From Isoetes taiwanensis (taxonomy: Eukaryota; Streptophyta; Lycopodiopsida; Isoetales; Isoetaceae): DNA of 64,000 nucleotides. Below, piece by piece: positions 13,938 to 49,612 of this stretch. Under the pieces are notes generated by a model that was given only the letters and a program-made list of their open reading frames with translations, did not search any database and had not been told where the DNA came from. Location: the NCBI GenBank assembly GCA_021234155.1, contig JAJEKV010000005.1:20258089-20322088 (forward strand), in the 5' to 3' direction. How positions within the stretch are numbered: the first letter of the stretch is position 1; every line of letters begins with the position of its first letter. A program made the position numbers and the translations under genes.

Positions 13938-13944
13938 TTGCCCA

Positions 13945-25026: not shown

Positions 25027-25076
25027 GCCATAACACCAGAACGGATTCTAAATACTCATGTTCGGCAGTTGGGCAA

Positions 25077-25868
25077 TGTGATTGCTCCCAGAATCTATAC
25101 GATGCGCCCATCGTATAAATACAAGAATTCCCCTCCCATGGCGACTACATCACCATGGTAAGGCCCTCCGTCATATTTGGACCACTTGGAATGGCCAAGT
25201 GTCCGAGCGAGGAGCACGGAGGTGTCATTCGTCCCACGTCCTCTATGGAAGATCCTATACAACGGAAGCATACATATACGTTAGCATACAATCATCATGC
25301 GAAATAATATACCACCACGAAGGGTGGCCCATCCATCATCATCAATGGAAAAGATAATACATCCATAATAACACGAAACAACACTATGACAAGGCACTAC
25401 CCCGGGCTCAGACTCCAAGGGGTCAACTGACGGCCAGGGCCTCAAGATATCAACAGACGGAAGTATAACATGGCGTTGGCTGGCATAAGACAATGGCTAG
25501 GGTTGTCCACTCCATCCGCCCCTCCTGTACACACTTTGCGGATAGGCTGAATCATGCTATGACGTGCTTGTAGCCCTCCGGAGACGCAATCCCAAGGAAT
25601 CACCCTTCAGGACTACTCCGGGTTACATCTTCCCGGTTCGATGAGGCAGGTCAGAGAGGCGTCTCCTCCCCGAGCATGACGGATACCTGGGTGTGCTAGA
25701 GAACACGTGCCGCATCAGCGACCCCCGCATCCGTACCCGACTTACTCATTTAAATCTAAAGGTCAGATCATCAACCCGTTCGAGCCCAGGATGACCATAT
25801 AGACTTACGCCCTCCGGCCCAGAGAGTGTCAGACCCATACCCGGCCCACACACAGTGACCGGCTATAA
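25077..25868 (-). repeat. Gypsy 3' LTR (part shared with 5' LTR)
   Basis: It starts TGTGATTGCTCCCAGAATC and matches 40693-41480 at high identity until about GACCGGCTATAAG. Sequence between 25869 and about 26150 should be the rest of the LTR or its junction with pol, but it has no match above 41480. It also matches the left-arm copy at 13165-13937. Confidence 0.85.
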
Positions 25869-26152
25869 GTATGCTCCTAGCTAGCCTCTTTAATGCACTA
25901 TTAAATTTGGCATGTGTACAAGAGCCCCACCTGGTTGTGGGTGGAGGGGCCAGACTGGCTTACAAGGAGGTTCATGTCCTGACTCATGATCACGTCCCTC
26001 TAGTAGTAAAGCCTATCGGGGACTATAGTGCACTAGACCTAATGCTCTGCCACTGCGTGAGGGCTTTGCATGGGTTCGACACTCTTGGGGTGGTGTACAC
26101 CTTCCATGGAGTTCAAGTCGAGTACGGGCAGTGGCCCTCTAGTCACCTTGAG

Positions 26153-27139
26153 TCAGCATGCTAGCCTCTGGTGGGAGTGATCCCTACCTGCCCCATCAGA
26201 ACTGGGGAGATGCCTCTCCAGAAGTGTTGGTGTGTCAAGAATCTCTTCTGGATCCGGATGATGCTTCTTGAGAAGGCTTACATGGAAGACTCTATGGATC
26301 TTTAGATGTGCGGGTAGATCCAACCGGTAGGCCTGAGAACCTATGCGTTCGGTTATAGAAAATGGTCCCGCCCATCTAGATGCAAGTTTCTTGCAGTTGC
26401 CAATCTTAAGTTTGGCTTGCTTCACCTTGATCTTTAGCCAGACAGAGTCACTGACCTGAAACTCCCGGGGAGTACATTGTCGATCAACTAAACTCTTTTG
26501 CCGAGCTCTTGCGGCTATCAAGTATGCTCGAACTTCCTCAACTAGCGCTTGCATGTCTGTGAGTAATTGTTGAAAAACCTCCACCTTGGATACTGGGTTA
26601 TGCCACGTGTCTGGTGTCAGGCACTGATAACCATAATTTATCATGAAAGGAGACATCCTTGAGGACTCCTGTCTCGTACTATTGTAAGCAAAATCCACCA
26701 AATGAATGTAGTCTGCCCATTGAGACTGTTTGTTCCAGACATAATTACATAGCATATCCTCAATTATGCGATTGGTACGCTCTGTTTGGCCATCTGTCTG
26801 CAGATGATAAGCTGTGCTCATGGCAAGCTTAGTTTGAATAGTGCTGAAGAAATCCTTCCAAAATGCACTAACAAACTTAGGATCCCGATCCGATATAATG
26901 GTACGGGGCATCCTATGCAGACGAAATACCTCCCTCGTGAAGAACAAGGCGATATCCAATGCAGTGTCTGTGGTCCGACATGGCAGGAAATGTGCCATCT
27001 TCGAAAGTTTGTCGACCACCACCATTAAGGCATCAAACCCTCTTAAGGTGCGCGGAAGCCCCACGATAAAATCCATGGTAATAACTTCCCATTTAGCATT
27101 GAATACATCGAGGGGTTGCAATTCTCCTGGAATACGCAA
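26153..27139 (-). pseudogene. Gypsy integrase, DDE core and C-terminal domain
   Basis: The open stretch of 328 residues starts inside integrase. The catalytic triad is visible: Asp in ITMDFIVGLP, Asp in TIISDRDPKFVS, and Glu in DGQTERTNR. The C-terminal domain has VWLKIK, RWAGPFSI and HRVFHVSLLKKH. Upstream in frame, the HHCC zinc-binding region at about 27145-27300 is interrupted by a TAG where the conserved Gln after the first zinc Cys is expected (about 27165). Integrase would insert element cDNA into the genome. The stretch after HVSLLKKH is short and shows no clear chromodomain. Confidence 0.9.
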
Positions 27140-27267
27140 CTGCTCTGCCTTTGTTTGTTGACAGGTCTAGCATTGCTTGATATATGTGGCAATGTGCTTC
27201 TTCATGCCTGGCCAGAAATAGCTGGAGCGGATTTTGAAATATGTCTTCATGAATCCTGCGTGCCCCG

Positions 27268-28257
27268 CTATTGGACTGTTATGTGTGTCGTGGAGAATAA
27301 GCTTACGAACTCCAGATGTGTCGGGAACATATAACTTGTCCTTGTAATAAAAGAGTTCAGCTTCCTTCTTATAATGGCGGAAAGTCTCTCTCTCTCCTTA
27401 TCCGTTCTGGCTTCCCTAGATACACTTTGCCAAATCTCTCGGAATTCCGGGTCTGTGGGAAGGGCCTGCTGAATCTGCTTGCCGAACTCACTGAAGAGTG
27501 TGGAGATAGCATTACAATGCATTCGTGTGACGAATGGATGTCTAGAAAGAGCGTCGGCAACAACACTATGCTTGCCCGGTTTATAAATGACCTCAAAATC
27601 ATATTCCTCCAGGAATTCCATCCACCGTCTTTGTCTCAAATTGAGATGGGGTTGCGTAAAGATGTATTGGAGGCTTTGATGATCAGTATCTAACTGGAAT
27701 CACCTTCCAAGTAAATAATGCCGCCAAATGCGCAAAGCACGCACAACGGCGAGTAACTCTTGGTCATGCGTGGGGTATCGCTGCTCAGCGTCATTCATCT
27801 TTTGAGAATCATAAGCGATAACCCGACCTTCTTGCATTAAACCCCCCCCCCCCCCGGGTAGCAATTTTACTGGCATCTGTGGCAACCCACTTATCCTTTT
27901 GAGGATCTGGCATTGTAAGAACAAGAGCGGTTGTCAAAACATCCTTTAATGCTTGAAATCCGGTCTGTACCTTGTCTTTCCAATGTGCCATCCAATCCCT
28001 AACCTTATCATGCTTGGTCAGGTCAGTTAAAGGTGCGGCGAGCTTGGCAAAGTCCTTGACAAATTTACGGTAATACCCGGCCAAGCCCAGGATGCTGCAA
28101 ACCTCAGACACATTGGTTGGAATAGGCCATTCTTTGACTACTTCAATTTTAGCTGGGTCGGTGGCTATTCCCTCTACGGACACAATATGTCCCAGGTAAT
28201 CAACCTTAGTGGTAGCAAAGCAACACTTGGAGAATTTGGCATATAATTGGTGGCGTC
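27268..28257 (-). pseudogene. Gypsy RT C-terminus and RNase H
   Basis: Downstream of the 509-bp insertion the RT frame resumes with [25 protein letters not shown] and [14 protein letters not shown], then the RNase H start WVATDAS, and later [20 protein letters not shown] and FEVIYKPGKHSVVADALSRH. Three lesions are visible: a run of 14 C at 27842-27855 that shifts the frame (the left arm has only about 5 G there), a TGA near 27697 where Arg is expected, and the later TAG. RNase H degrades the RNA strand of the RNA:DNA hybrid. Confidence 0.88.
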
Positions 28258-28766
28258 CAAGGGGGGTGCACCTAGAGTACACATATTGATCAAGTGAGTG
28301 CATCGGTTAGGGTTTTTTATTGCCTTGGTCGTAGGTATACGGTCAGGAGCTCATACGGGTGGGAAGGAGAGATTCCGTAGATGATCGACTTGGGGAGCTG
28401 ATCCATCTGATGGAAGGAGCGCCGTATCCTTATATTTTCAGCTTCATTTTTACCTTTCTAGCAGATTCATCTCAGCACTATCCATTCCAGCTATTCCATA
28501 TATTGCACAGGTATTACCCTATTCCAGGAATTCCAGGTATTCCAGGAACCCTAGACCTATGTCCTCACAAAAGGTACAAAGTCGGAAAGGGATTATATAA
28601 TTTGGCACAACCAATCGTAAATCTATGGATAGAGGCTATAATGTATGTTAGTTCGAAAACCCATATGGTATGGGTTTTTCTACTCCAAAAAGCCGTATAC
28701 AGGGGTTTTTCTGTGACCCCTCGAACGCACATGCCATCTGTCCATATATAGAGGTGCACCCCCCGG
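28258..28766. mobile_element. 509-bp non-autonomous element with 9-bp TSD (Mutator-like)
   Basis: The insertion sits between identical 9-bp direct repeats GGTGGCGTC (28249-28257 and 28767-28775). Its ends are inverted: CAAGGGGGGTGCACCTAGAG at the left, against TAGAGGTGCACCCCCCGG at the right, a core TIR of GGGGGGTGCACCT. Removing it with one TSD rejoins the RT reading frame. A 9-bp TSD is characteristic of Mutator-like elements. No transposase is present. An internal CCATTCCAG/TATTCCAGG-rich stretch lies at 28480-28550. Confidence 0.85.
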
Positions 28767-29230
28767 GGTGGCGTCTCAGTTTCTGTAAGGCCAACCGAAG
28801 ATGCCATTCATGGTCCTCTAAGGTCTTACTGTATATGAGGATATCATCAAAGAATATTATGACAAAATCGTCAAGGTACTCACGGAAGACATCATTCATA
28901 AGCCTCATGAAGGTGGCCGGAGCATTAGTCAGGCCAAATGGCATGACGGTAAACTCGTAATGCCCATAACGCGTCCGGAAAGCGAACTTATGGATGTCAT
29001 CCTCCTTAATCCTTATTTGGTGATACCCGGACCGTAGATCAATCTGGCCCCTTGCAATTGATCCATAAGATCATCTGCCCGCAGCAAAGCATACCGATTC
29101 TTAATAGTGTGATTGTTTAGCTGGCGGTAATCGATGCACATTCTTAGGGTGCCATCTTTCTTCTTAACAAAAAGTATCGGGGCTCCAAAAACTGAAGCCT
29201 AATTTAAGGAGTTCTTGCAACTGCTTCTTA
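28767..29230 (-). pseudogene. Gypsy reverse transcriptase N-terminal and catalytic part
   Basis: The minus-strand reading gives the palm motif [20 protein letters not shown] (in part), [18 protein letters not shown], and the catalytic box as [17 protein letters not shown], with the two adjacent aspartates intact. The N-terminal part at 29230-29050 has frameshifts. It is cut at LRRH by the insertion at 28258-28766. Confidence 0.88.
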
Positions 29231-29533
29231 AGCTCGGTCAATTAAGGAATACTCATTCGATATGGGGCCTTACTGGTAGGTTTAGTGCCTGGTTTCAGGG
29301 TAATTTCATATTCCACCCCTCTGAATGGTGGCAACCGATGGATTTCATCGGGAAAAAGATCATGGTATTCCCGAAGAACTATGGCTATTGCAGGAGGCAA
29401 TGCATCAAGGACTTCATCCTGTTTGGACTTAGCTTCCACTGAAGCAAGTCGAATCATTCCCGTAATCTGAAATTTCCTGAGAGCCCTATGCAACTGGCGT
29501 AATGAAATACATTGCATAATAGGACTAATTGGC

Positions 29534-30306
29534 TTACCTGCTATAGTGACTCGGGCTCCATTGGCTGCATTGGGTGACCTCCAGTTTCTCACAATCAATG
29601 TTGGCTTTGGCAGCGGCCAGGAATTCCATTCCCACAATGAGATTATACCGGCCAATATCCATTATCTCCGCTCCTAGAGCAACAGGTGCTCCTGGCAGCT
29701 GAATACTCAAATTGATACGAGGACCACTGGTGTGGCTTATGGCCCCACTTGCCAATGTAACTGGACGTGGCTTAGACCTCAAAGGGGTGATGTGTAAGGC
29801 TTCTGCCATTCTAGGAGATGCAAAGTTATGCGTGCTACCAGTATCCATAAGAATGACGAAGGGTTTACAATCTACTTGACCAATCGTAGAGATGACAGAG
29901 GGCTGGTGGTTGGCTTGATCTGTTTCAATAGCAGCATAAATGTGAGACTCACCTGTTATATAGTCAGGCGCGTCATCCTCCTCAGCGTTATCCGGATGGT
30001 TTGGGTCCCCCGTGTCTTCCCAATCCATATCAGCCAGGGCGGCCTGCACTGTCTGTGTGATGTAGGGGCATTCTTGCATGCGGTGCCCCGGGCGGAAGCA
30101 CCGATAGCAAGCCCGCTCCTTACGCAACTGTTCACGGGCCTCCCTAGGGATAGCTTGGAGGATATCTCTGAAAGCTCCTGCAAGATTGGTAGACTTCTCT
30201 GGCACAGTGAAGGAAACTTTCTTCTCAATTTTCTGGTATCCAGTAGAGGCGAGAAGGCTCTGGACTAGGTGAGCGCCCTCTGTACGGTGTATACCCCTTG
30301 TTCAAA
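29534..30306 (-). pseudogene. Gypsy gag C-terminus (zinc knuckle) and aspartic protease
   Basis: The zinc knuckle CYRCFRPGHRMQEC (CX2CX4HX4C, residues 33-46 of the open stretch) binds genomic RNA in gag. The protease active site is DTGSTHNFASP at about residue 120, in the context CKPFVILM. Upstream, 30206-30306 carries a degraded gag linker leading to the TIR-element junction at 30306. The remaining protease domain (LPGAPVALGAEIMDIGRYNL, GMEFL) follows. A frameshift near 29560 separates it from RT. Confidence 0.88.
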
Positions 30307-30884
30307 CACAAGGCCCCCAAAATTGAATCAGTATGATTTTTTTGAAATGATTTATTAGTGAAAACCAAATCTTAAAATCATTACCGATATGTGGGCCAAA
30401 AAGTTTACAAACCATATTTGGTTATACATTATAGTTCATCAATACAATTCCACGACGTGATAAAAGATCATTGTTTTTTTATATGGTAGTAGAACATGAT
30501 AGTTATAGTTTTATAACAACTTAAAATATGTCTAGTTTAATAGAATGATTATCAATCCCATCTATCTTTCTTAGCATATACACATGGTAATTTTTAGTGT
30601 CTATGTTACGATGATTTATGAGATTAATCGTAACAACATACGATAAATGTAATTGGTTTAGGTTTGCTAGTATGAGTTTATAGTGATTAATTGTAACAAC
30701 AACATATGATAAGTATAGATGACTTTTTTTGCATGATACCAAATGGTTAACCACTGCAATATTACCAAATAGTTTACCAGTATAATTTTACAACCTAATT
30801 TTGAGCTTATGATATTTAAAAGCGTTTTATGACAATGCAGTAGAGGATTTAGGGAATTTTGTGACTACAATGGGAAGATGAACA

Positions 30885-30963
30885 TGTGGGAGTTGAACCC
30901 ACAATTTTACCATGTGCTTCACAATACAATTAGATTGGATATAGTCATGTGGTATGTTCTTAA
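30885..30963 (-). other. tRNA-like cloverleaf candidate (right-arm copy)
   Basis: This is the inverted copy of 8147-8226, with the same complementary hexamer ends (GAACAT / ATGTTC) and T-arm hairpin with B-box-like GGTTCAACTCC. It is not a recognisable functional tRNA. Confidence 0.35.
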
Positions 30964-32510
30964 AGAGCCAGACACCTAAAAGAAATGAGCAATTTAGAAG
31001 CCAAATTTCTTTAGAAGCATAATCATTCCTAAATGTAATGAGCAAGATCACAGCTCCAAAAACCACCCTGCTGTTCGTTCGTAATCTGGCCCTGCCCTGC
31101 CCTGCCCAGCAAAACATGGAGGGAATCTGGTTGATGCAAAACATCCAAGATATAAAGCTAAAACATCGTCAGACCATCTGCAAAATAACTCTAGAACATC
31201 TCTATCATGGCTATGCCGCCCTGTCCTACCACTTCTGTAAAAAGAAACTATTACTTCAATAGAAAGAAACTATAATAATAACCCTACTGACCATTCAAAT
31301 GCCAAAACCCATTTTCTAACATCAACAAACATGGAAAGAAAGGAGCATTACCTAGTGTAATATGCAAGAAAGCCATTTGGCCCTGATAACCCCAGTAATA
31401 ACCCTGGAAAAAGGAAGGTTCGGATCATACAAAAGATGAATAAATTGTTGAAGACAATAAACTGTTGAAGGATCTAATCTTGAAATCTAATGCAACAAAA
31501 CAAGAGCTTCAAAAAAGAAAAAATCAAAGAAATAAGAAAGCACTGCAAGAACTAAGCATAGATTTTATTGAGCTTCTCATGATTGAAGGACCTAAGATCC
31601 AGCTTGATAACTTCTAAACATCCATTGAAGAATGCCACAAAACAGTTTTTCACAAACAATAGTTTCTATTTGACATCTGTAATAGGCTGCAATACCATAA
31701 GGAATACACAGAATCAATAAAACTTAGAAAAAAATTGTATACAAGAAAACTCGGAGCAAGGCCAACCTATTATCCTTACATAGATCTAAAAGTTCTGTAA
31801 GGCAAAAACGCATCATAATCCGAAAATATTGCGAATAGATCTGTGCAACAACCCTGCAAGAATGTTGAAAGTAAGTAAGTGCAAAGGAATAAAACAAGAT
31901 AATATAAAAGACCAGATACATATCGTCCCATAATGAATCACATAGCAGCTCTGCACATCGAATAGAAGTTTCTACTTCGAAGGTAGTGATTCTTTCATCC
32001 TTTTGCAGCTTCAGAAATAATTTAATTTCATGAGCTACTTACTGGGCAATCATCTGTGGACTTCATAGTTTTGCTAGTAAGAGCTGAAAGACGCTGGCCG
32101 GATGCCTATACTCTGTGAAGAGCCTCGTAAAACTGCCATGCCTATGCTTGTTCTCAAAGAAGCATGTTATGCTATGGATCGGCGTCCTTTAGGGCATATG
32201 GCCGCTGCTAAGTGGATCATGGCCGCATCCGGCGAAGCCAAATGGGAGCTCTCAGCTCCACCGCCGCTGCCGCATTAAGAAAATGGAGGGAAATAGGGTT
32301 TGGGCGTTATCAATTAAGGAATTAAAAGAAAAATTAAAAAAAAAAACCCTTTATATTTATGGGGTTGCTCCTGCAGTTTTTGAAATTGTCAAATTGCCTT
32401 TACTTTTTCTCTTGGAGCAACGACCAAATGGGGGCACAGCTAAAAGAATCGATCTTGCTTCCGAAGTATGGTAGTTATATCTATAAGTTACAACAAATGC
32501 TACTCTCTGC

Positions 32511-35500
32511 AATATAACCTGCATTGAGCGCATTACAACATCCATTGAGAGCGAGAGCAGCCTACTCCACGATCTGATAAAAAAGCAGTATAAACATATC
32601 AATTACTCCGATCTCAATCAGACAATGAGCAATATGGCTCCGAAAAGTGGAGCTTCATCCATTACTAGATTTTAAGAAGATTGAAAAAAACTCAGACGTG
32701 AGGTCACAAAATAAATCAATTGTTGTACCCCAATGTATCAATTAGTAGATTTGTCAAAAACAAAATTGGATTTGGCGAATGAATTGGTTAGTTTTTTTAG
32801 CCCAGATCCCACTGTTTTTCATTTGAAACATCACCCGGGTAGAGATGTTTGATCGATAAGGTTCAAATGAACTATGAGAAATTGGAACTGGGGAAATAAA
32901 GAGCAATAACTTCTTCAACAGCTCGAGTTACGATTCTTAATGAAATTGTACTTTTTTAATATGGTGCTACCACATGGCACTTTGCTACACTAAAAATTTG
33001 GCTAGCCAAATTCGCATTACATGTTTTCCCAGCTACAACACTAGTTTCTCTCTCCTCTCTCTTCTTTGTGCCAACTATGGGCCTCTCCCACAAGGGCACA
33101 GTAACCTGCAACATACCTCCCAGACATTACTTGGATGGCACACAATCCAAACCTGCAAGCACACGACTACATTATTATAACGTGTAATTTATAAAAGGAA
33201 TTTAACATAACTATTGAAGCACCTCTCACAGGGATATATCAAACATGCATGGGCATAAAAAAGTCACTCTGATGTCGTCACACTTTTTAAAATAGAGTAC
33301 GTTAGGCAATTGACCAATAAAATACTAAACTATAGGCCAAAGAACCGTCATTCAATTAAATTTGGATTATGTCAATTTCAAAATCACGCCAACCTGCGGT
33401 TGTTGCCTATAGGGCTTTTTTTTATTTTTTTTATTTTTTCCTTGAACTTGACAAATCACATAAACATTGCAATTCCCATGAGTCGTTTCAGATGAGACTT
33501 GAAATATTAATGCTTGAATCATATTGTTAGAAGGCCCTTAATGGTTATCTCGGATATCAAGGCCCAATGTCAAATGTATTGATATTGATCTTGTCATAAT
33601 CAATCAGTAGTATTAGCCCACTTTCTACCAGAATTGGCAGATGTTCTCCTTTTGTATTTGTGAGGCTGAATGAATAAGTAATTTTCAGAGAAGATTTGCA
33701 GTCTCCTCCTTAGTATAGAGAACTCAAATTACTGGAGGTTCATGTACCAATAGAGAGGTAATAGATCACTATTGTGGCTTAGATTCTGAAGGCAACTTGG
33801 CCCCCCCAAAAATTGGAGCTGTAATTAAATTGGCCCTAGGTTTGTTGCCAGATGGCATCCAGAAATCCGACATTTCTCTTAAAGTCAATTCGGATCTGCC
33901 ACAATACTCTCATCAGGTGCTTTAGTCTACTAAATACTAACCATTATTGCAAATGTTCGCTCCTCAATGTGCTGATGCATATTTGCCTAGCCCACGCATA
34001 AGAGCACCATCTTCCACCCACCACAGAATTCAGACGTGCAAACTCCTAAATCCTTCCTAGTGTTTTTCTAAGCAATCTTTGGATTCACTGGCAGCATTTT
34101 TTGCTTTTTTTAGATTCACTAGTTCATATCATCGGATCAAGCAATCAAACTAAGTTGATCCAGTGCAGAAGACTGGTTTATGTGAACCTTCTATGCCATC
34201 TCACTTATTGAAGGCTTTTTAGAACCAGTGACAAGGTATGATGCCCATGTTGGATCTGATGGCGCTGAAGGTTCTACCAAAGAGGCTGGAATTCGATTAT
34301 TAAATAATATAGAAAATCTAATGACTTTTGTTTATTGAAGATGATCGTCAAGGGGCTAGCATATTTAACATACCTGCTGCCTGGCATGATGAAAGTATCC
34401 CAAGCCCACCTAGAAGTAGCCAAAGTATTTATTGACATTCATTTGTTTCTGCTAATTAAGTTACAAAATGTAAATATTACAGTAAAGCATACTTCAACAA
34501 GTGCTCCCATGCTCATGGATAAGCACCTCAGTAAGCACCTCAATCTAAAAATAGATTTTTTTTTCGAACTTTGCAAAAGCCCAAAGTAGAATGTTTTAGA
34601 ATGTTCGACGCTCTAGAACGCATTCCTTGAGAACTTTTTTTTAATTCCTTCAGTTGCTATAGATGGCTATACGCAGTTGTACTACATGCTAAAGATACCA
34701 CATGTCAAAATGCAACAATGCCCTACAAATAGCACCCAATCTAGTGGACCATAAGTTCACTCAAGTTGTTTACGACATTGAACTTGTATTGTATAACTTC
34801 TACTCAAGCTGATCTATGGCTAGAGAGAAAGATGTGAATGAAAGAAAAGTTAGTGCATCCTTCAACAAACATTTTCTAAAACATTACTCAATGGCCTGAT
34901 CACCCAAATTTATGAGCCACATAGACCTCTAGTCGATTAGAGCACTTGTAATCAGTCAAATTTGATGTCACCATGGCCGCTAAGTCCCAAGGTATGCTGG
35001 TCAAAATTTCAATAATTCTTTCTAGTTTAATGTTGGAGAATTACTATCTAGTCAATCGTACCAACCTTAAGAGTGTTAAATGAGATGGCAAAGTCTAACA
35101 AATATTTCATTGCTTCAATCTTTTTACGAAGAAATGACTATGGGTCTATTCTCATCCATCGACAAAACTATAGATAATGTGGCATATCTACATGCCACAA
35201 TTCATACTTATCACCATTCATTGACACCCACCCAATACCACATACTACAGAGAGATGGCGAACTAAAGTTCCTGGCTATTAAGATCTTCTAATGCTTTTG
35301 AAGATTGCAACACCTGAAGAATTAGATATAGTAGTTGGAATGACTAGTTAATATGGAAAATTATGCTCAAGATCAATAGTGGCTTAAGGATTGGATCAAA
35401 ATGGACTATAGAATAAGCAAGTAGCAAAAGCATAGCATATTTGCAAAATCAAATGCGATCTTTGAACTAACTTCAGCGCATTAGAACTGTGTTACAAAAC

Positions 35501-35740: not shown

Positions 35741-35776
35741 GATTATTTATGCGTGTTCTTTTTTGGGGGCCTTGTG

Positions 35777-36249
35777 AAAGTGAACGAAGATGTTCGTGGC
35801 AGCTGGTACTTCAGGGTGTCCTCTTCTAGGCTAAGTGCTTTAGCCTCTGCTTCTGCAACGGTCTTAGGGTCTATGGCTCGTACCATTTTCCTTATGGTAG
35901 GGGATAAGCCCTCAATATACCCTTCAACGGCCCTACGCTCATTTATCCCTGGGACGTATAAGCGTAACCTCATGAACTCATCCGTATAAGACTGGACGGT
36001 CATGTTTTTCTGTTCCAGGCGGTAGAAGGTTTGGATCTGTTGGCAACGATGGGCCCTGGGCACATAACGTGATTTGAAGGCTTTAGCAAAGACTTTATAG
36101 CAGCACCTTCCCCTTGTGAGCCCATGAGAGCGGGCATATCCCTTCCACCAGATTCGTGCTTGGAGATCAGTAAGTTGCCGCTTCATAATAGTGAGCTCTT
36201 CTTTGGGTAAGTAAGGCGGCTGGGTTGCAGGTGAGTGGGGGGCGTGCAA
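35777..36249 (-). pseudogene. Gypsy gag (retrotransposon gag domain), split by insertion
   Basis: The segment contains the gag capsid signature: FAKAFKSRYVPRAHRCQQIQ, FYRLEQKNMTVQSYTDEFMR, LRLYVPG and GYIEGLSPTIRKMV, preceded by PYLPKEELTIMKRQLTDLQAR. Gag packages the RNA in virus-like particles. The frame runs into the TIR element at 35776 and resumes at 30306. The upstream part around 36120-36160 has degraded spacing (WWKGYARSHGL). The start Met is not certain because accessory coding sequence lies immediately upstream. Confidence 0.88.
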
Positions 36250-36426
36250 ATCTAAGATAAAAACAATCCAAGATAAGCATACTAATTCCCTTAGTTATGA
36301 CAAGAGTTTTACAAAAGAAAACACTTTGATTATTAAAAGGAAAACACGGTTACGAAAACTTGTTTTGATTTCATATACAAAAGTGAAAATTGCATTTGAC
36401 GAAGGCGACTATTAAAACAAACGAGC

Positions 36427-36800
36427 TTAGGGCTGCGTAAAGGGATATAGGATAGAGTACCGAATACTCTCCCTTACCACTTGGACCATTTTGTACCTAG
36501 CCCAAGCTTGGATAATGACGTACTGGAATTCCAAGGTAGGGCTGATGATTAGAAGATTAAAGAGATCTCGGAACGCATAATATATCTGGCAAAGATGATC
36601 ATTAGCATCCGCAAAAGCTTCTTGCTTCGTGCAGTCCCAATACGACCAAGTTCGACGAAGTGTAAGCTGTAAATGTTCAAAAGCATAGTCGCGAAGGATG
36701 TTAACTATTTCGAAGCCCTTGATGGGGTCGTATGGCTCTCCCTCTTCTTCTTCTGCTTCGTCTTATTCCTCTTGCTCTTCTTCTTCTTCTTCCTCTTCTT
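36427..36800 (-). pseudogene. Accessory coding-like segment behind a splice-acceptor-like site
   Basis: Reading on the minus strand, a pyrimidine-rich tract ending CTTCTTACAG (acceptor-like, 36801-36810) is followed by a Glu-rich run and then a well-formed stretch with EPYDPIKGFEIVNILRDYAF, then TWSYWDCTKQEAFADANDH, ISPTLEFQYVIIQAWARY and VRESIRYSILYPFTQP, ending TAA at 36427. An in-frame TAA interrupts the acidic run near 36765. I recognise no family. It may be the last exon of the ORF at 36973-38175 or a gag-proximal ORF of the gypsy element. Confidence 0.5.
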
Positions 36801-36803
36801 CTG
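36738..36803. repeat. CTT/TTC-rich microsatellite
   Basis: This is a TTC/CTT-rich tract with interruptions. On the minus strand it encodes a Glu-rich run in the accessory ORF. Confidence 0.7.
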
Positions 36804-36972
36804 TAAGAAGGCAAGAATGGATATACAACAAATGGATGATTCCTTATACTTCAAACTCTAGAAAGAGAAAGGCAAGTATTGCTTGTATTCAAAAGTGCAT
36901 AAAAATATCAATGCAATATTACATATTTTTGAGTGGCCCAAGGCCATACTCTATAATGGCTGTTACATCTAG

Positions 36973-38175
36973 CTAGAAGCTAGGTCCCGCATCGTGGTCC
37001 ATTGGTGTAGGAGGAGGTGGTGGCGGCCGATGACGTAACAGGGTGACCCCTGGGTCAACCGTAGCAGCCGCAAGGGAAGCAACCTCTGGGGGATAGGCAT
37101 CAGCTAATGGGACTGCCGTAAGGAGCTTCATACTCATCCAAGGGGCTATGTCTTGACCCAAGGCGGTGAGGGCGAAGTCCCGGCGCATCCACACATAAGT
37201 GAGGACGCGTGGAGTAACCGAAGTGGCTATCTCCTTATCCAGGTCCATAAGGTCCATAAGGACCTCTTCCTCCTTAAGCTCTTTCTTCTCCTCCCTAAGA
37301 TGGACAGGGTTATGGTAAAGGTCTTCCCCTTCTTCATCTGAGTCGAAGGGGATCTCGACCATGTTGATGTTTGGGACATGAGGTCCCATGGCTGTGAAGG
37401 CTTCTAGAGGAGGCTGAGATGGAGGATCTTGAAGTACAAGATCTCTAAGCTGAAGAAGAGTGTGGGCCGGCTCTATAGTCTGCTGGTGGAACTGAAGCAG
37501 CTGCTGCACCTCTAGAGGAAGATCCACTGGTGTAAAATCGATGAAGTCATCCATGTAATATTCTGCAAGTTCATAAAGGACTTGTACTTTCTCCGTCCCT
37601 TCAAACCGGCCACTACATGGTATGTCCAGAGAATATCATCCAAGAGAAGGCTCTCCTGACCTTGGTGATAGACAACTGGAAGGGCATCCAATCCGCTCCC
37701 GGTGTGGCGGCATCTCCTCGGCCAACTGCTTCCACCGAACGAAGTCATCCATCCCAATATGCTCGTCCTCTTCCTCATCTGATGACTCCGGGACCTTGCC
37801 CTTCTCTGCTGGCAGGGTCTCATCCTCCACATACTGATCCATGAGGATGGCCAAAGCAAAGGCCACTTCAAGGAACTTCTGACCCTCATGCATGACGAAG
37901 GGTGGCCCCACCGGAGTTTGCCCTTAAGCATGTCGTATGCATGGGTGTCTCCTCCAAGCATCTCCCTCACCACATCTCGCTCAATGTAAAGGGATGCAAA
38001 AAGGAAGCATCTCCTGGGTGTAGAACTCCAAAAATCCAGCATAGTCAGGGTGACTCTGCATGTTGGATATGAAATCTATGCATTGGAGTAGAAAAGGCTG
38101 TAGGAGGTCGAAGGGGACTTGAGGGTCACAGCGTCCTCCATATTGATACCATTCAAGCAGGTTGGCGGTGGCCAT
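36973..38175 (-). pseudogene. Unidentified accessory ORF between PBS and gag, frameshifted
   Basis: It begins ATG at 38175 (MATANLLEWYQYGGRCDPQV) and can be followed to GPSF-stop at 36973, using two short detours into another frame (about 37981-38030 and 37560-37690). Recognisable features are an FLEFYTQEM helix-like segment, an acidic run (SSDEEEDEHIG), a second acidic run (REEKKELKEEEVLMDLMDL), and a proline tract near the end. The three main pieces share one frame, so about four small indels would explain the breaks. No family was recognised. Upstream is a promoter-like stretch with a TATA box. It lies inside the gypsy span, so it may be an extra element ORF or a captured host gene. Confidence 0.5.
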
Positions 38176-38243
38176 TGGCGCTGGAAGGTATGAGGGAGGA
38201 GGGTGAACAGAAAGATAAGTGATGGGGGATGAAACCCTTAAAA

Positions 38244-38283: not shown

Positions 38284-38442
38284 TCAAATTTTAAATAATT
38301 ATTAAAAGTTAATTATTTATTTTAGTTTGCAATAGTAAGCCAAAAATTGGATTAATATTCATCTTTACAAAATTGATACAATGGCTATGCCTGAAGGCAA
38401 CTACAGATGATCTCCCTGGATTCTCCGGGCAAGCGCTAAGTC

Positions 38443-38802
38443 CAGTGTTGCAAAAATACGCGTATTTTTTGAAAATGATCCATTCCGTACCGTACTTGTA
38501 CGTATTTTTAAAAAATACTCCTAACGTTTTTTTTTTAAATACTACTTGTTTTTCACAGAACAGTAAACTTGCACTTACCAGGAATTGAACCTGGGCCTCC
38601 TAGATAGCAAACTAACATGCTAACCAACTTCCCCTACATCAGTTTTATGTTTTATTTCACTGTTTTATTCTACTTAAACAATGTTTTTTTTGTTTTTAAA
38701 AAATACTCCAAACGTACGTAAGGTACGTATGGCTGAAAAAAATGTATTTTTTAAAAAATACGTACAGTACGTACGGTACGGTACGCGTACGGGACAACAC
38801 TG
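38443..38802. mobile_element. 360-bp hAT-type MITE with perfect 8-bp TSD
   Basis: Its ends are CAGTGTTGCAAAAATACGCG and, inverted, CGCGTACGGGACAACACTG. It is flanked by GCTAAGTC on both sides (38435-38442 and 38803-38810). An 8-bp TSD and CAG...CTG termini are diagnostic of hAT. The arms are rich in ACGTA/TACGT repeats and AAAAAATAC runs. It splits the H3-fold frame between codons 209 and 210, and excision with one TSD restores continuity. Confidence 0.93.
38564..38637 (-). other. tRNA-derived (SINE-like) core inside the hAT MITE
   Basis: On the minus strand, GGGGAAGTTGGTTAGCATG resembles a pol III A box and GGTTCAATTCC matches the B box, with a T-arm hairpin CCAGGTTCAATTCCTGG. The region is about 74 nt long, as expected of a tRNA, but the acceptor stem pairs poorly. 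It is probably a captured tRNA or SINE head, not a functional tRNA. Confidence 0.55.
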
Positions 38803-39437
38803 GCTAAGTCCTTGGTCATAATCGTGATCCTCTTTGCATGGATAGCGCAGAGGTTCGCGTCACTGAAAAGAGCTATCAGGTAGGCTTCAACAGCCCCCTG
38901 GAGTGCCAAGATAGCAAAGGTCTGGAAGCGAAGGTCGGTCTTGAACTCTTGGGCTATCTCCCAGACCAACCTCTGGAAGGGCAGCTTCCTCAGTAGCAGC
39001 TCCGTGCTCTTCTAGTATTTACGGATTTCCCGTAAAGCCATGGTGCCCAGTTTGAAGCGATGGGGCTTTCTTGAGGTAGCAGCTTTTGGAGTCGGGCCAG
39101 ACTTCTTGGGCAGGGTTTTGCCTGCAGAAACTGGATGGGGCCATGCGGTATCCACCCGTTCTTGCCGGCGACTCGAGCTCGTGTATTTTCCTATGCTCCC
39201 GATAGCCTTGAGCTTTTCCTTATGCTGGCTGCCGGACTTCCGAGCGGTGGACTTCCGACGTCTCTTAATAGGCTGGCTTCCCTTTGGATCGAGGCTCGCA
39301 GCGGGGTTTCTGCTCTGTGTTGGCTTCTTCTTGCTGATCCGATTTTGTTGCTGCTCTGCTTTGCTCCTTGTTGTTGCTCTTGTTGGGCCCTTTCCCGTTC
39401 ACCGACCCTCACGCAGACTCTTTGCCATAATCGGCTT

Positions 39438-40029
39438 CTACGAGCAAACGCCCGACCCAGCGACCCTTCGAAGCAACTCTTGATGGTAGCGGTCTGGCCG
39501 GACTTGCATATCCAGCTGGACCGTTATCAGGTAATCCAGGCTGACATGTGCTGGGATCTCACCCCATGTGAAGCTCTGGGTGGCCTCATTCCACTCATAT
39601 GGGGGAAGTTCGAAGGGTTCACAATTGATGATGGCTCTCCCATCACCTAGGTAGACGTACTCACGGCCCCTAGCCGCGGTGTCTCCCCTTTCTATCTCCC
39701 TGATGTCGTCCTCGTGGGCCAGTTCTCTGATGCGGGCCGCCTCTCTCCGAATGGCCTCCTCTTAATATTCTTCGCACTCAGGTGGGTAAAACTTAACCAG
39801 CACCATAACTTGGTTGGGTTGTTCAACCATAGTATACGCCTGCCGTTGGAGGTTAAGCTTGATCAAAAAGCGTTCTAAGAGGTGGAATATGGGGTAGGGT
39901 ATCTTCAGGCCATCACTGAAATGCTGAACCAACTCATTTAGGGTTGGTGGCCAGGTGCTCCCCAAGCATGGCGTAGATCTGAGGTATGGTGAAGTTGGCA
40001 GGGCTCAAAGTACCTTTGGTATGGGCCAT
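39438..40029 (-). pseudogene. Unidentified accessory ORF upstream of the H3-fold ORF
   Basis: It starts ATG at 40029 (MAHTKGTLSPANFTIPQIYA) and shifts frame near 39970. It continues with NELVQHFSDGLKIPYPIFHL, RFLIKLNLQRQAYTMV and VLVKFYPPECEEY, then TAA at 39762 and an in-frame continuation EEAIRREAARIRELAHEDDI, GREYVYLGDGRAIINCEPFE and SLDYLITVQLDMQVRPDRYH, to TAG at 39438. The ATG of the H3-fold ORF lies 9 nt downstream in the same frame, so the two may have been one polypeptide of about 420 residues before nonsense changes. No family was recognised. Pyrimidine-rich sequence precedes the ATG. Confidence 0.5.
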
Positions 40030-40679: not shown

Positions 40680-40691
40680 GCCCTGATACCA
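40680..40691 (-). promoter_or_regulatory. Primer-binding site (tRNA-Met type)
   Basis: In element sense the bases next to the LTR end read TGGTATCAGGGC, matching the common plant PBS TGGTATCAGAGC (initiator tRNA-Met) at all but one position. One base separates it from the LTR terminus at 40693. This fixes element orientation as minus. Confidence 0.88.
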
Positions 40692-40692
40692 C

Positions 40693-41480
40693 TGTGACGC
40701 TCCCAGAATCTATACGATGCTCCCATCGTATAAATACGGGAATTCCCCTCCCATGGCGACTACATCACCATGGTAAGGCCCTCCGTCATACTCGGACCAC
40801 TTGGAATGGCCAAGTGTCCGGGCGAGGAGCACGGAGGTGTCTTTCGTCCCACGTCCTCTATGGGAAATCCTATACAGCGGAAGCATACATATACATTAGC
40901 ATACAATCATCATGCGAAATAATATACCACCACGAAGGGTGGCTCATCAACGGAAAATATAATACATCCATAATAACACGAAACAACACTATGACAAGGC
41001 ACTACCTCGGGCTCAGACTCCAAGGGGTCAACTGACGGCCAGGGCCTCAAGATATCAACAGACGAAAGTATAACATGGCGTTGGCTGGCATAAGACAATG
41101 GCTAGGGTTGTCCACTCCATCCGCCCCTCCTGTGCACACTTTGCGGATAGGCTGAATCATGTTATGACATGCTTGTAGCCCTCCAGAGACGCAATATCAA
41201 GGAATCACCCTTCGGGACTACTCCGGGTTACATCTCTCCGGTCCGATGAGGCAGGTCAGAGAGGCGTCTGCTCCCCGAGCATGACGGATCCCTGGGTGTG
41301 CTAGAGAACACGTGTCGCATCAGTGACCCCCATCCGTACCCGACTTACTCCCCTAAATCTAAAGGTCAGATCACCAACCCGTTCGAGCCCAGGACGGCCA
41401 TATAGACTCACGCCCTCCGGCCCAGAGAGTGTCAGACCCATACCCGACCCATACACAGTGACCGACTATAAGCCTAGCAC
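40693..41480 (-). repeat. Gypsy 5' LTR (part shared with 3' LTR)
   Basis: It starts TGTGACGCTCCCAGAATC and matches 25077-25868 to about GACCGACTATAAG. One internal gap of about 12 bp is visible near 40950. Beyond 41480 the two sides diverge completely, so this LTR seems truncated or recombined at its outer end. No matching TSD was found. Confidence 0.85.
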
Positions 41481-42384
41481 ACTATAGGAATCATGTAGCC
41501 GCGCTAGGTAAGACTTCATCCCCGATTCACCCTCATACTCGTTGTCTGGTGCTGAACCACATCATAGCATCCACAGCCAGGTTGGCTCTTGTGCACAGGC
41601 CGCATCTATTGGGTATTAAGGGATCTAGCTAGAGACATCTCTAGTGCTAAGAGGCTTCTAGGTCTCTACCCTTCCCTTAATTCCCAATACACAGAAGAAG
41701 CAGAAAGAACTAATGTAAATACCCTTCAAGTATTCAGAACAACTTACAAAAGAGAATTTAATCATTCCATCTATTCAAAGAAGTGTCAGCGGAAAAGAAG
41801 CTATCTATTGACTAACCAGTGTCTTGGTTAGAGCCATGGTCACGGTAGGCATCCATAGTTCGAGGCTGGTGGGTAAGTGTTGGCAAAAACAGGTGTAAGC
41901 TGCTGGCTGCTGCTCCTCTTCACTCCCAATTCGAATTTGGGATGAATTGGGGGGTAGGACCCCTATTCCATGCCCCCAAAATGGTAAGTCCCTCCTGGCC
42001 AATCGATTTGGGCCAGGTGGCACCCCCTCATTGGTGACAATTAGTTAATTAGACTATAGCATAATTAGGTTAATTATGCCACTATAATCCATAATTATCC
42101 ATTGGTTTTATTAGCATAGCTAATAAAACCCATTATAGGCGAACCCCCCACTTGGGCCCTTAGGCCCACTATGTACTGGTGACGTGTCATGGTATGCATA
42201 CGTATGCCGTATAGATATCTAGAATGTCACAGGCAATAGAGATATTCGTGAATATCTGGTCTTGTGGCGAAGCCAGTCTCCCGCGATGCCACTTGGGAGA
42301 CGAATAAGTTTGTGCAATGTTTTCCTCATTTGAAACTCTAGACCTTGAGGACAAGGTCCTAAGGGGAGGGGAGGAAATTTTTAT
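41481..42384 (+). mobile_element. Gypsy polyprotein end and polypurine-tract fragment (partial)
   Basis: Near 42335-42377 a LDLEDKVLRGGEE-like reading is followed by the purine run AAGGGGAGGGGAGGAAA. This arrangement marks the end of many plant Ty3/gypsy polyproteins and their PPT. The upstream 850 bp is AT-rich with no clear ORF. Confidence 0.45.
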
Positions 42385-44296: not shown

Positions 44297-47200
44297 AAGG
44301 AAGGAAGGAAGGAAGTTTATTTTAACGTCCACGGAGGCCAAAGGCCTATGAGACGGTACATGCAGAGAAAACGAGCAAAAAAGCCAAAAACCCCAACACC
44401 AAAACAAACAATGTAATCAGGTAGAACCCTACTACGGGATGAAAAAAACCCCACTTGGGAGGAAAAACCCTAGCAAGAGGCTCTCAAATACCATGCCCGG
44501 AAGAGCAAGTCGGACGGCCGTAAAATGGCAGGGATGTAAGCTCCCACCGGGCGCTACCATAGGTGATGCAAAAATCGATGTAGCGGTGTGTCGAAACATC
44601 TAAGATCGATTATTGCCACCGCCGGACATGGGCATATCTTTGGCCGGGCATCGTTGGAGGGCATGGTGCTCATCCTCTATCACGTGCATCTCACAACACC
44701 GACATATCCTTTCCTCCCCTCGGGATCCCGCGGCCGCCATTCAACCCCAAATGACTGTTTCCCCGGCGAGGTAATGGGAACCCGCCCCTCGATGGCGTAA
44801 TAGCTTTTTCTTCACGAGATGTGTGCTTTCAAGTACCGATGGGGTCCATGCTCAAGGCGGGATTAATCGAGCGTGATAGTGCTCGCCTTGGGCTTTGCAA
44901 GAGTAGAGGCATCCCCAGGGTGGCAGGATAGCCTGCATCCAATTGCCCATTCTCGCAGATCGAATCTGCCATTGCCACCATCATCATTTGGTAATCCATA
45001 GACCACCTCCTAAACCATCCCTTACGATTGCTCGTGCCATACCCTCTTCTGGCCGGGGCCCTCAGATTAACAACACACTGGTGGGGGCAAGCGATGCTCA
45101 TCCATCCCATCCACCTTATGGAAGCAAGTAAGATGCCTGCACAAGATAGCGTATTTGAAAGGCGAACCTCCGGTCTCATACAACAAAATGCGATGCGACG
45201 GCATTTGTCCTTTCACTCCCAAGCTATATGTCAAGAAAGCTTTCTGCACCCTTTCCAACCTATCCCATGTATTTTTGCTAATCTTTGGGCCCCAAACCTC
45301 CACCCCATATAGCAGCACCCAGCTCGACTAAAGCTCTAAACAGTGTGCTCTCCTCGCCGATCCACGAGATCTATCCAAGCAACCGCTTTGTTTTCAGCAT
45401 ATAAAGCCTTCCAGCACAGACCGGCTCTCCTCTCCACACACTCATCCCACAAAGATGTTAGTAGTGAAATCAATTCCCAGATACTTGAAGCTCGCACCAT
45501 CTCCACTTCACGCCCCCACGTAATATAACTCCGGGATAGGGTGTTGCGAGGGACGGGATCGCGAGAAGCTTAGTTTTGTGCAAGTTCACTGTCATTCCGT
45601 TGCCCCACGTAACCCACGAGGGCATCCAAATGCTGCTGCATCCGCTGGTCGCGTGTGGGCTAGCAAAGCTACATCATCCGCATATAGTAACCGGCCCACG
45701 AGGTCGATCGGATAATTGCACCCGGCTCCCCATGGTGTTTGTATCCACGCCTCTCAAGCTATCAATGTACAACCCAAAAGCGTTGGAGACAACGGGCAGC
45801 CCCCGCTTAACTCCCATAGTGCTAGCTACCACCGATCTTCATAAGGGCAAGCAAAGATAAATCCCATCATAAAGCCTGGTGCACCACATTCCCGCAACTC
45901 TGTGGAACTCGCAATTCTTGCAACCTGCGCCACAAGATGTCGGGGGCGGTATCATATGCGTCTTAAAATCTACAAAGCAGCAATACAAGTGCGCCACAAG
46001 ATTGCGGCTTGCCTCCATCAACACTCTCAAAGTGAAGATATGGTCGGTCGTGGAGTGAGCCGGGCTTAAAGCCCGCTCGCCAATTGCTCCGCACCCCTGC
46101 CTCCTCGGCCCACTTAGTGAGTTTCTTCTCCACCACCCCTGCCAGAGCTTTGCAAAGAGCGAAGCTTACCATAATCATCCGTAATTAGCCGGCTCATCCT
46201 CAGATACCAGCTTTTATGAGCAGGAACAACCTTACTAACCATCCACTTCCCGGGGAGGCCTCGCCGAGAGTTCGGTTAATGATCACCGTCGGGGGCCCTA
46301 CTATAGATGGGCCACCCCACTTCAACAAATTTTACCGCGCAGCCCCAGTAAATCTTTTTGCCTTGCCATTCGCCGGATGCTCGAGACCCCGCTGGACATC
46401 CTCCCGCGTGGAGCCGCAAAGACCTCCTACCTGATCCGGGACCCCGGCATTAGCTCCCGGGGGTCATATAACTCCCCGCAAGCGGTGCATCCATTGCTCC
46501 ACACTTACATTACCAGCCACTGGCGCTTCTTTGTATAACACCTTCGCCAAAAGCTTTTGGCTCGCCATAAGCATGTCAAACAAAGCTCACGGGTTTTCGC
46601 CATGTATCTCCCCTTCTTGGCTTTTAGGAAGATCTTATAGTCTTGCGGGGCCCTGTGGCGCAAGCGTGGATCTATTATTAAAGCTTAACCGGCTCTTTAG
46701 AGCCTTGCAATCGACATCAAACCACGGGTTCTCGAGGAAAATGTGCGGTGTCCCTCCTTGAGGGGCCCTTCACCGCAAAGGAAGCCTCGGCCACACGCAA
46801 GCAGCGCCCTCTCCAGCCATGCCATGCACCTGTCTTGCGGTGTGTAGAAGCTATCAAACCCTCAGAACTCCCGCACCAACACAGATTCATACTGTCCACG
46901 CCCCCGATGGCGTGGGATGTACGGTAACCCTCCATGCCCCTTTGCGGTGTCTCCACTATGGAGTGCTCCCAATTCAGCGTGACATAAAGCGGGTAATGAT
47001 CGACAAAGCCTCCTCATCCCCGTGCTTGTGCCAATGGAGAAGTGTGTAACCATGTCAAGTGTCAAGCATCTGAGGGAGAAGGTAATCCAACACACTAGCT
47101 CCCCCATCCCGCCTATCACTCCACGCAAGTAACACCCCGAGTGTGGCCATCGGCGCATACCATTACAAATTACCATGTCAAAAAACACGGCAGAGCTGGA

Positions 47201-47720
47201 CCACTTTTGCCGCCAAATGGTCTAGCCACCATATCCGGGAGTGCCGTGTATCTTTGAATAGCTGGCATCTCAAGCCAAAGCGGATCAACATTATCGTCAC
47301 CTTGGAAGGTCACCGACCGCAAGCCGCTGGCCCGTCGAGCATTGAAATCTCCAAGCAAAAACACTGCCCCTGCCGTCTATAGCGGTCTATGTCATCATAC
47401 GAGATCCCTATCTGACGACGGACATCGTGGTTAATGCATCATGTACCGTAGAACTTAGAGCTGCATGGGGAATGTAGCAGCTAGCAAGAAACAATGGGAC
47501 ATGACCGGGGCTCTAATACCATTACCCACATGTAGCGATTAAATGCATCGGACTTGAAGTGTGATCTTGCATGCTAAGGCATCCCTAAAGTAGCAAGCCA
47601 CTCCACCGCACTCCGCGTCGCCATGGCGCTCATTAGCAAGTGAGAAATGCCGATATCCTCGAATGTCCGGCAATCGATGCCCTTCATACTCCCATGTCTC
47701 CCGCAGAAGAAGGCGATGTT
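44297..47720 (-). mobile_element. LINE (non-LTR retrotransposon) copy 1, endonuclease to 3' tail
   Basis: The minus-strand order is endonuclease (LNIAFF region near 47700 and GDFNARRASG at about 47345), then reverse transcriptase (KLTKWAEEAGVR near 46110; catalytic LLYADDVALLAHT at about 45685), then the C-terminal domain (LLYGVEVWG, ERVQKAFLTYSLGVK, HKVDGMDEHRLP at 45318-45067). The 3' end is a (TTCC)n-like tail at 44297-44317. The frames are broken many times and the sequence is CAG/CTG-poor, so some breaks may be errors. It is 5'-truncated or fused at 47720 to copy 2 in opposite orientation. Confidence 0.88.
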
Positions 47721-49612
47721 GAGCCGGCGAATTACCGGATGATTATGGTAAGCTCGCTCTTTGCAAAGCTCCTGGCAGGGGTGGTGGAGAAGAAACTCAC
47801 TAAGTGGGCCGAGGAGGCAGGGGTGCGGGCAATTGGCCAGGCAGGCTTTCGCCCAGCTCACTCCACGACCGACCATATCTTCACTTTGAGAGTGTTGATG
47901 GAGGCAAGCCGCAACTTGCGCCGGGACTTGTATTGTCGCTTTGTAGATTTTAAGACGCATATGATACCGCCCCCCGGAGACATCTTTGGGCGAGAGGTTG
48001 CAAGAATTGCGAAGTTCCACAGAGTTGCGTAATGTGGTGCACCAGCCTTTATGATGGGATTTATGCTTCTATTTGCTTTATGAAGATCGGGCGGGTAGCT
48101 AGCACTATGGGAGTTAAGCAGGGGCTGCCCGCTGTCTCCAACGCTTTTGGGTTGTACATTGATAGCTTGGAGACGTGGATACAAACACCATGGGGAGCCG
48201 GGTGCAATTATCCGATCGCGACCTGCGTGGGCGGTTACTATATGCGCGGATGATGTAGCTTTGCTAGCCCACACGGCCAGCAGTATGCAGTAAAGCATTT
48301 GGATGCCCCGGTGGGTTTACGTGGGGCAACGGGAATGACAAAGTGAACTTGCACAAAACTAAGCTTCTCGCGATCCCGGTCCTCGCAACACCCTATCCCG
48401 GAGTTATATTACGGGGACGGGAAGTGGAGATGGTGCGGAGCTTCAAGTATCCGGGAATTGATTTCACTACTAACATCTTTGTGGGATGAGTGTGTGGAGA
48501 GGAGAGCCGTCAGTCGGAAGGCTTTATATGCGCGGCAAAAACGCTGTTGCCGGATAGATCTCTGTGGATCTGGCGAGGAGAGCACACCCTGTTTAGAGCT
48601 TTGGTCGGTTTGTGCGCTATATGGGGTGGAGGTTTGGGGCCCGCCAGCTTAGCAAAAATACATGGGATAGGTTGGAAAGGGGGCGCGAAAGCTTTTCTTG
48701 ACATATAGCTTGGGAGTGAAGGACAATCGCATCGCATCGATTTTGTTGTATGAGACGGGGTTTCGCCTTTCTGACGATTCGCTATGCTGGCATCTTACTT
48801 GCTTCCATAAGGTGGATGGGATGGATGAGCATCGCTTGCCCCCACAGTGCTGTGTTGTTAACGGAGGGGCCGCCAAAGAAGAGGGTATGGCACGAAAGCA
48901 ATCGTAAGGGGATGGTTTAGGAGGTGGTCTATGGATTACCAATGATGGTGGCATCGGGCGCATTCGATGCGCGAGAATGGGCAATTGGATGCGGGCTATG
49001 CTGCCACCCGTGGGATGCCTCTACTCTTGCAAAGCCCAAGCGAGCACTATCACGCCGATTAATCCCGGCCTTGAGCATGGACCCCATCGGTACTTGAAAG
49101 CACACATCTCGAAGAAAACGGAGAGCTATTGCTGCCATAAGGACGGGTTCCCATTACCCCTAATTGAAACAGTGTTGGGGTTGAATGGCGGGCACGGGAT
49201 CCCTGAGGGAGGAAAGGATATGTCGGTGTTGTGAGATGCACGTGATAGAGGATGAGCACCATGCCCTCCGGCGATGCCCAAAGATATGCCCATGTCCGAA
49301 AGCAAAGGCACACCGATCTTAGATGCTTTCGACACACACCGCTACATCGATTACTTGCATCACCTATGGTAGCGCGGCTGGGAGCTTACATCCTGCAGAT
49401 TTCGGCCGTCAGACTTGCTCTTCTGGGGCATGGTATTTGAGAGCCTACTGCTAGGGTTTTTCCTCCCAAGTGGGGGTTTTTTCATCCCGGTAGTAGGGTT
49501 CTACTGTACAGTTACATTGTTTGTTTTTGGTGTTGGGGTTTTTGGCTTTTTTGCCTGTTCTCTGCATGTACCGTCTCATAGGCCTTTGGCCTCCGTGGAC
49601 GTTAAACAAAAT
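47715..49612 (+). mobile_element. LINE copy 2, reverse transcriptase to 3' end, inverted to copy 1
   Basis: It begins abruptly in RT at EPANYRMIMVSSLFAKLLAG and matches the reverse complement of about 46190-44300. The reading continues with EAGVRAIGQAGFRPAHSTTD, the YADD box at about 48235 (split by a 2-bp insertion where copy 1 reads GCGGAT), VEVWG, and a GLGSPF-like C-terminal zone, to GGACGTTAAACAAAATGC at about 49605. It lacks the (TTCC)n tail. It is 5'-truncated at the head-to-head junction. Confidence 0.85.

Follow-up and report, generated by a model that had tools for sequence, protein, structure and literature searches.

What does a histone H3 fold do inside a retrotransposon? In a 64,000-nucleotide stretch of the genome of the lycophyte Isoetes taiwanensis (contig JAJEKV010000005.1, positions 20,258,089 to 20,322,088; hereafter the window), a minus-strand reading frame ending in such a fold lies in the leader of a Ty3/gypsy element. 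A first-pass annotation had weighed a CENH3-like protein carried by the element against a processed H3 retrocopy that had landed in it. The frame turns out to be a defunct ORF1 belonging to a Ty3/gypsy family of chromovirus type. In such elements ORF1 is a protein of about 430 aa, built from an N-terminal domain of about 200 aa, a glutamine-rich and basic linker and tail, and a complete H3 fold; ORF2, ORF3 and gag-pol follow downstream.

The window copy and its element

The element runs from 42231 to 25077, further than previously annotated (Table 1), and the homology of three other copies begins at or next to 42231. It has the features of Ty3/gypsy: an LTR pair bounded by TGTGAC...GTCACA (the 3' LTR being truncated), target-site duplications (TSDs) of TTGCC, and the order gag, protease, reverse transcriptase (RT), RNase H, integrase. 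Over the part that they share, the 5' and 3' LTRs are 93.2% identical across 796 columns. The primer-binding site (PBS) is one that we take to be of the initiator-methionine type. Pfam has no match for ORF2, for ORF3 or for the N-terminal part of ORF1, and ORF3 lies after a putative intron. The nested insert that splits gag is 5.4 kb long and AT-rich, with a possible TTT duplication; no Pfam domain was found in six frames of 30500-35450.

Table 1. Features of the H3-carrying Ty3/gypsy element in the window, from its 5' to its 3' end
Feature	Position	Strand	Basis or remark
TSD TTGCC beside 5' LTR	42232..42236		sequence
5' LTR (TGTGAC...GTCACA)	40693..42231	-	homology start of three other copies, ends read
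PBS TGGTATCAGGGC	40680..40691	-	sequence
ORF1, broken in window copy	38401..40029	-	4 in-frame stops, frameshift, MITE
N-terminal domain of ORF1, ~200 aa	39430..40029	-	no known family
Q-rich linker and basic tail of ORF1	39069..39429	-	sequence of window and natural copies
H3 fold up to MITE	38803..39068	-	Pfam, PDB, reference comparison
hAT-like MITE in H3 fold	38443..38802	-	360 bp, ends CAGTGTTG...CAACACTG
ORF2, acidic, broken in window copy	36973..38176	-	no Pfam match
ORF3, perhaps a further exon of ORF2	36426..36830	-	no Pfam match
gag capsid part (Ty3_capsid, Retrotrans_gag)	35743..36249	-	Pfam
Nested insert splitting gag, inverted ends CACAAGGCCCCCAAAA	30316..35776	-	ends approximate
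Zinc knuckle and aspartic protease	29534..30205	-	Pfam
RT, RNase H, integrase (several frames)	26153..29300	-	Pfam
3' LTR, apparently 5'-truncated	25077..25869	-	LTR comparison
TSD TTGCC beside 3' LTR	25072..25076		sequence

The H3 fold of the window copy matches Pfam PF00125 (Histone) at E=1e-31, and its best PDB match is H3.3 (2.3e-42). Over the gap-free stretch KPHRF...KDL, 68/88 residues are identical to H3.1 and likewise 68/88 to H3.3; the folds of both references were found letter for letter in retrieved proteins. The fold is complete and has the canonical loop 1 of a core histone H3, its last residues lying beyond the MITE, within 38404-38442 on the minus strand. Together with the Pfam matches of the gag capsid, these results bear out the earlier placement of an H3 fold with a basic tail between PBS and gag. 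In a protein search, all 120 matches listed (of 3580) contain at least two H3 folds. A single-sequence AlphaFold model has a mean pLDDT of 39.5 and gave no lead.

The window copy is dead, as had been proposed. A 360-bp MITE interrupts it, and outside the MITE the ORF1 frame holds four in-frame stops and one frameshift or more; the exact ATG-to-stop frame of 220 codons described at first is not confirmed. The upstream ORF of about 190 codons is the N-terminal half of the ORF1 protein and no gene of its own. The suggestion that a single fusion of about 420 residues is possible fits, since an uninterrupted copy elsewhere in the genome has 430 codons and starts with MAHTK, like the ATG at 40029. 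The N-terminal domain of ORF1 has no match in Pfam, NCBIfam, PDB or the protein database, and in the last of these none of 3204 candidates for ORF1 residues 1-290 had E≤1. Viral contigs scanned by tblastn with ORF1, integrase and the H3 fold yielded no relative, and an Rfam scan and a tRNA scan gave no lead.

The first-pass annotation also recognised the MITE as an insert within the frame, which the 8-bp duplication GACTTAGC at 38803-38810 and 38435-38442 and its absence from other ORF1 matches confirm. Judged from its ends and the 8-bp TSD, it is presumably of hAT type. None of the 33 ORF1 matches elsewhere in the genome runs into the MITE; its two flanks are adjacent in 19 of them, and a 20th has a deletion there. 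Six further places match the MITE alone, at 93-94%. Within it, a tRNA-like stretch at 38570-38640 with a B-box, GGTTCAATTCC, was noticed by eye, and ARAGORN found no tRNA.

Copies of ORF1 and the selection acting on them

The ORF1 segment was searched for in 1.658 Gb of genome. Among the 40 of 1331 candidates that were scored, it is present at no fewer than 33 other places at 76-91% identity, two of which may be halves of one copy. Within 10-kb stretches retrieved around the best 20 of these places (L009-L028; with the window copy, family A), the 5' LTR is matched in 17/20, ORF2 in 17/20, gag in 12/20 and RT in 9/20, and the order 5' LTR, ORF1 (H3), gag, RT is complete in 8/20. The H3-carrying segment therefore occupies the same position in other copies of the element, which the first-pass annotation had named as a point to check. 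One of the 20 retrieved copies has an uninterrupted ORF1, whose 430 aa comprise the domain of about 200 aa, the linker and the H3 fold.

A second search, with H3.3 as query, points to a sister family. Among the 150 of 9103 first-look candidates that were scored, 15 are full-length host H3 genes (97-99%) and 135 are element-type folds (72-87%), eight of them with a stop. Stop-free stop-to-stop frames of at least 400 aa surround 44/135 of these folds, and all 8/8 sister-family frames retrieved have the same fusion of N-terminal domain, linker and H3; as the frames were chosen for being open and long or best-scoring, neither figure is a rate. ORF1 of the sister family is 56-62% identical to that of the window family over nearly its full length. 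The ATG stands at the same place in six of the eight frames, one of the others starting outside its stretch and one having no ATG there. In both sister copies whose downstream DNA was retrieved, ORF1 is followed by ORF2/ORF3-like frames, which match no Pfam family, and by a gag-pol frame that was Pfam-checked in one. Judged by eye, both of these copies are incomplete, one having no RT and the other running into foreign sequence.

Both families show purifying selection on ORF1. In family A (window and 20 copies, 210 pairs), median dN/dS is 0.18 in the N-terminal domain, 0.18 in linker and tail, and 0.11 in the H3 fold. Among the eight natural frames of the sister family (28 pairs), the corresponding values are 0.064 (25 usable pairs, 3/28 having been dropped as saturated), 0.21 and 0.022; small dN values are noisy, since host H3 genes with near-identical proteins give 0.018-0.079 by the same dN method. 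Controls treated in the same way, namely all three frames of the family-A leader and LTR, range from 0.66 to 0.87, and the gag capsid gives 0.26 in 10 copies. The whole ORF1 protein, and not the fold alone, is thus kept by purifying selection across two diverged families. Multiple copies, a constant place within them and this selection uphold the proposal that the gypsy element itself carries the H3. ORF1 dS among the family-A copies L009-L028 is 0.48-0.65, higher than the divergence of the leader (~0.2-0.27) or the LTR (~0.09-0.13); recombination between families or constraint on the UTR is a possible cause.

Origin of the element H3 and the chromodomain

A tree of 37 H3 folds included 29 element rows, 18 from family A (3/21 were dropped for too many unknowns) and 11 from the sister family, three of them from copies broken upstream. 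In it the 29 element rows make up a single clade (100/100), which lies next to the H3s of host, seed plants and human and well away from the one CENH3 in the set; the bootstrap had not fully settled. By this tree, all of them go back to a single H3 of canonical type. The window family nests within the diversity of the sister family with weak support. Identity to host H3 is 85-89% for sister-family folds and 70-84% for window-family folds, as compared with 4/15 host genes. The four host genes retrieved encode ordinary H3s of 135 residues; they share the fold with the element and differ from it by their canonical tail and separate clade. E77 occurs in these four H3s and in most element folds, as expected if the H3 was taken from this host's lineage; the seed-plant H3s compared have D77. 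Synonymous sites between element and host H3 are saturated (raw pS 0.93), which makes the capture old. Replacements common to both element families fall at H3 positions 86, 87, 89, 102, 107, 124 and 125, and we take positions 87-90 to be the stretch that separates H3.1 from H3.3 for chaperones. Within the fold core, 80/99 columns are invariant in nine natural proteins.

No chromodomain was found upstream of the 3' LTR in the window copy, where the 3' end appears deleted. A sister-family copy (L044), with its frame read through stops, has a match to PF00385 (Chromo) at 6.9e-07 after the integrase, and a family-A copy (L026) has the same region by tblastn. A chromodomain at the integrase C-terminus characterises chromoviruses, so that these elements count among them and carry an H3 in addition. 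A replacement of the chromodomain by H3 was considered and set aside on the same two copies. Inspected by eye, it lacks the first aromatic residue of the cage. The same holds for type II chromodomains, for which PMC6317226 describes the partner as unidentified.

Possible roles of ORF1 and comparison with known systems

Taken as a whole, the best explanation is probably a selected H3 fusion ORF1 that belongs to the element and may act as a docking adaptor. ORF1 itself may, as a tentative assignment from its sequence, be a chromatin-docking adaptor: the H3 fold would feed into the host route for H3-H4 (chaperones, import, nucleosome), the N-terminal domain would bind element RNA, capsid or the integrase complex, and both halves together would bring the element to host chromatin or keep it there. 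Pairing with H4 and entry into the nucleosome are plausible because the fold keeps most H3 core positions, and the ligand of the N-terminal domain is a guess because no relative of that domain can be recognised. Host proteins more constrained than histones are few; where an element has retained an H3 at dN/dS of ~0.02 (sister family), it presumably puts the nucleosome or its chaperones to some use. It appears to have turned part of the cell's chromosome-packaging machinery to its own ends. A lycophyte chromovirus could, by a reading that we hold with reserve, make its own nucleosome component, a fusion adaptor between particle or integrase and chromatin that works beside a type-II chromodomain. 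Against an adaptor, the type-II-like chromodomain of other copies is already a candidate chromatin reader, and most family-A copies (20/21) are broken. The adaptor would be the simplest reading of ORF1, with anti-silencing and packaging as its main rivals. The element H3 gives direct access to two questions: by what means chromatin is chosen or modified by chromoviruses, and what a histone can do once a foreign part of 300 residues stands in for its tail.

In anti-silencing, an unlikely if credible role, the element would place an H3 variant of its own on element DNA or on chromatin close by. The altered tail would lack the sites read or written by host silencing, and the N-terminal domain would sterically open chromatin. 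The fold looks nucleosome-competent by sequence. The tail is a rebuilt one: in the uninterrupted copy the fold comes after 331 residues, and the canonical ARTKQTARKS... is absent. By eye, Arg occupies H3 position 36 in the window copy and in 9/9 natural proteins, while eight sister-family proteins lack the K4 and K27 contexts. A K9-like lysine remains in 9/9 natural proteins, as ARKS in 5/9 (by eye). A motif GSQYK recurs in the tail of natural copies, with GSQHK in the window copy. Against this role, the conservation of the N-terminal domain (dN/dS 0.06) is unexplained unless that domain has a chromatin role. The resemblance of the tail to RxKxTARKS is marginal, its 7/9 identity being reached in 14/2000 shuffles and its local BLOSUM score being no better than that of shuffles; a likeness of the ORF1 tail to the H3 tail is therefore not firm.

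A packaging role, which we consider quite unlikely, would have the basic H3 fold condense element cDNA or RNA in the particle, as giant-virus histones do for DNA. The basic tail and fold are encoded beside gag in the same orientation, and giant-virus histones that form nucleosome-like particles have been published (PMC11500106). A lone H3 is, however, expected to need H4, and in three frames of the leader of the window copy Pfam detected no histone besides this H3. Persistence by hitch-hiking, as a captured gene without present function, is very unlikely for the lineage and true for most single family-A copies: ORF1 is broken in 20/21 of them (window and 20 retrieved), whereas dN/dS far below that of the non-coding controls in both protein halves speaks against it.

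A CENH3-like protein for centromere-directed integration, as first suggested, is extremely unlikely. The FSD motif of the window fold resembles plant CENH3; sister-family folds, in contrast, have FGD. Loop 1 has canonical length rather than the longer form of CENH3, with a two-residue gap in the alignment to an Arabidopsis CENH3, and only 41/89 residues of the window fold are identical to that protein, against 68/88 to H3. Because the element clade is separate from host H3 as well as from the single CENH3 used, and stands next to canonical H3, the CENH3 reading fails.

That a processed H3 retrocopy or captured fragment landed in the window copy only has a negligible chance of being right, even with an intronless ORF1 and a dead window copy in its favour, because the H3 segment lies at 33 other places in the same element position and under strong purifying selection. 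The TSD and poly(A) of its own that a stray retrocopy would carry, according to the first-pass annotation, are not borne out by a multicopy segment with no long A-run after the ORF1 stop codon in the window. The divergence of the window fold is also too large for the age of the insertion at the LTR rate, which speaks against a retrocopy: its 20 changed residues have P ~4e-7 at 0.026 substitutions/site (half the LTR divergence) and ~2e-5 at 0.034, save that P=0.05 at 0.068. In neutral simulations of the window fold, one stop is not unusual (P ~0.7), and the mean BLOSUM of the replacements is reached in 0-1.7% of runs, conservative replacements thus being unusual. A Pack-type DNA transposon carrying H3 was rejected, no inverted-repeat pair having been found to bound the leader.

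Some grass chromoviruses reportedly have 5' extra ORFs with partial similarity to histone H3 genes, which Steinbauerova et al. are said to have described in Genetica in 2011. They resemble the present element in being Ty3/gypsy chromoviruses with a sense ORF between the 5' LTR and gag, and ORF1, which lies there in sense and resembles H3, fits the definition of that group. The present case differs in its lycophyte host, its whole H3 fold, its fused conserved domain of about 200 aa, and the presence of a sister family whose frames are open and for which purifying selection was measured. What is new over the grass cases is hence a fused, complete and strongly selected H3 in a lycophyte. Given those cases, the first-pass view that captured histone genes are not an established category is doubtful; at the level of titles and abstract openings, the literature yielded no retrotransposon-encoded histone. 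If the grass ORFs are homologous to ORF1, the trait would be very old; if they are not, chromoviruses have captured H3 at least twice, which would point to a shared need.

A chromodomain reads histones, and in this it differs from ORF1, which is itself a histone. As an element-borne chromatin module, the chromovirus chromodomain is comparable to ORF1 (PMC6317226). It is established that plant gypsy elements can have extra ORFs and captured domains (PMC7264820, PMC6317226, PMC9289625, PMC3485330). Retrosat2/RIRE3/RIRE8, Tekay-type chromoviruses (Table 2 of PMC6317226), have an extra ORF upstream of gag-pol, ORF0, as here, and similar LTR ends, TGTCACACCC...GGGCGTGACA against TGTGAC...GTCACA; the text of the paper that describes them (PMC3485330) mentions histone 0 times and reports ORF0 from grasses alone. 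In Phalaenopsis, gypsy elements with an ORF for an AlkB m6A demethylase likewise have a captured host domain kept in many copies, the domain differing from the H3 here (PMC9289625). The same source covers 121 angiosperm genomes, and angiosperms only, with 15 extra domains past its filter and no histone among those named in the text section.

Elsewhere in the window, a direct repeat (1803-6582 and 19669-24531, 85.5%) adjoins an inverted one (6591-14482 and 24534-32520, 90.4%) that extends across the 3' LTR junction, so that 1803-14482 and 19669-32520 apparently represent a segmental duplication with an adjoining inversion. A large imperfect palindrome at 44321-49606, with arms at 44.3-46.2 kb and 47.7-49.6 kb that are 88% identical, holds a frame resembling a LINE reverse transcriptase by eye. 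A BAHD acyltransferase-like fragment was noticed by eye at 1331-1813 on the minus strand. An uninterrupted MOS2-like (G-patch/KOW) frame of 500 aa lies at 61190-62692 and, in a tree set that includes green algae, groups on a long branch with the lycophyte Diphasiastrum (94/85).
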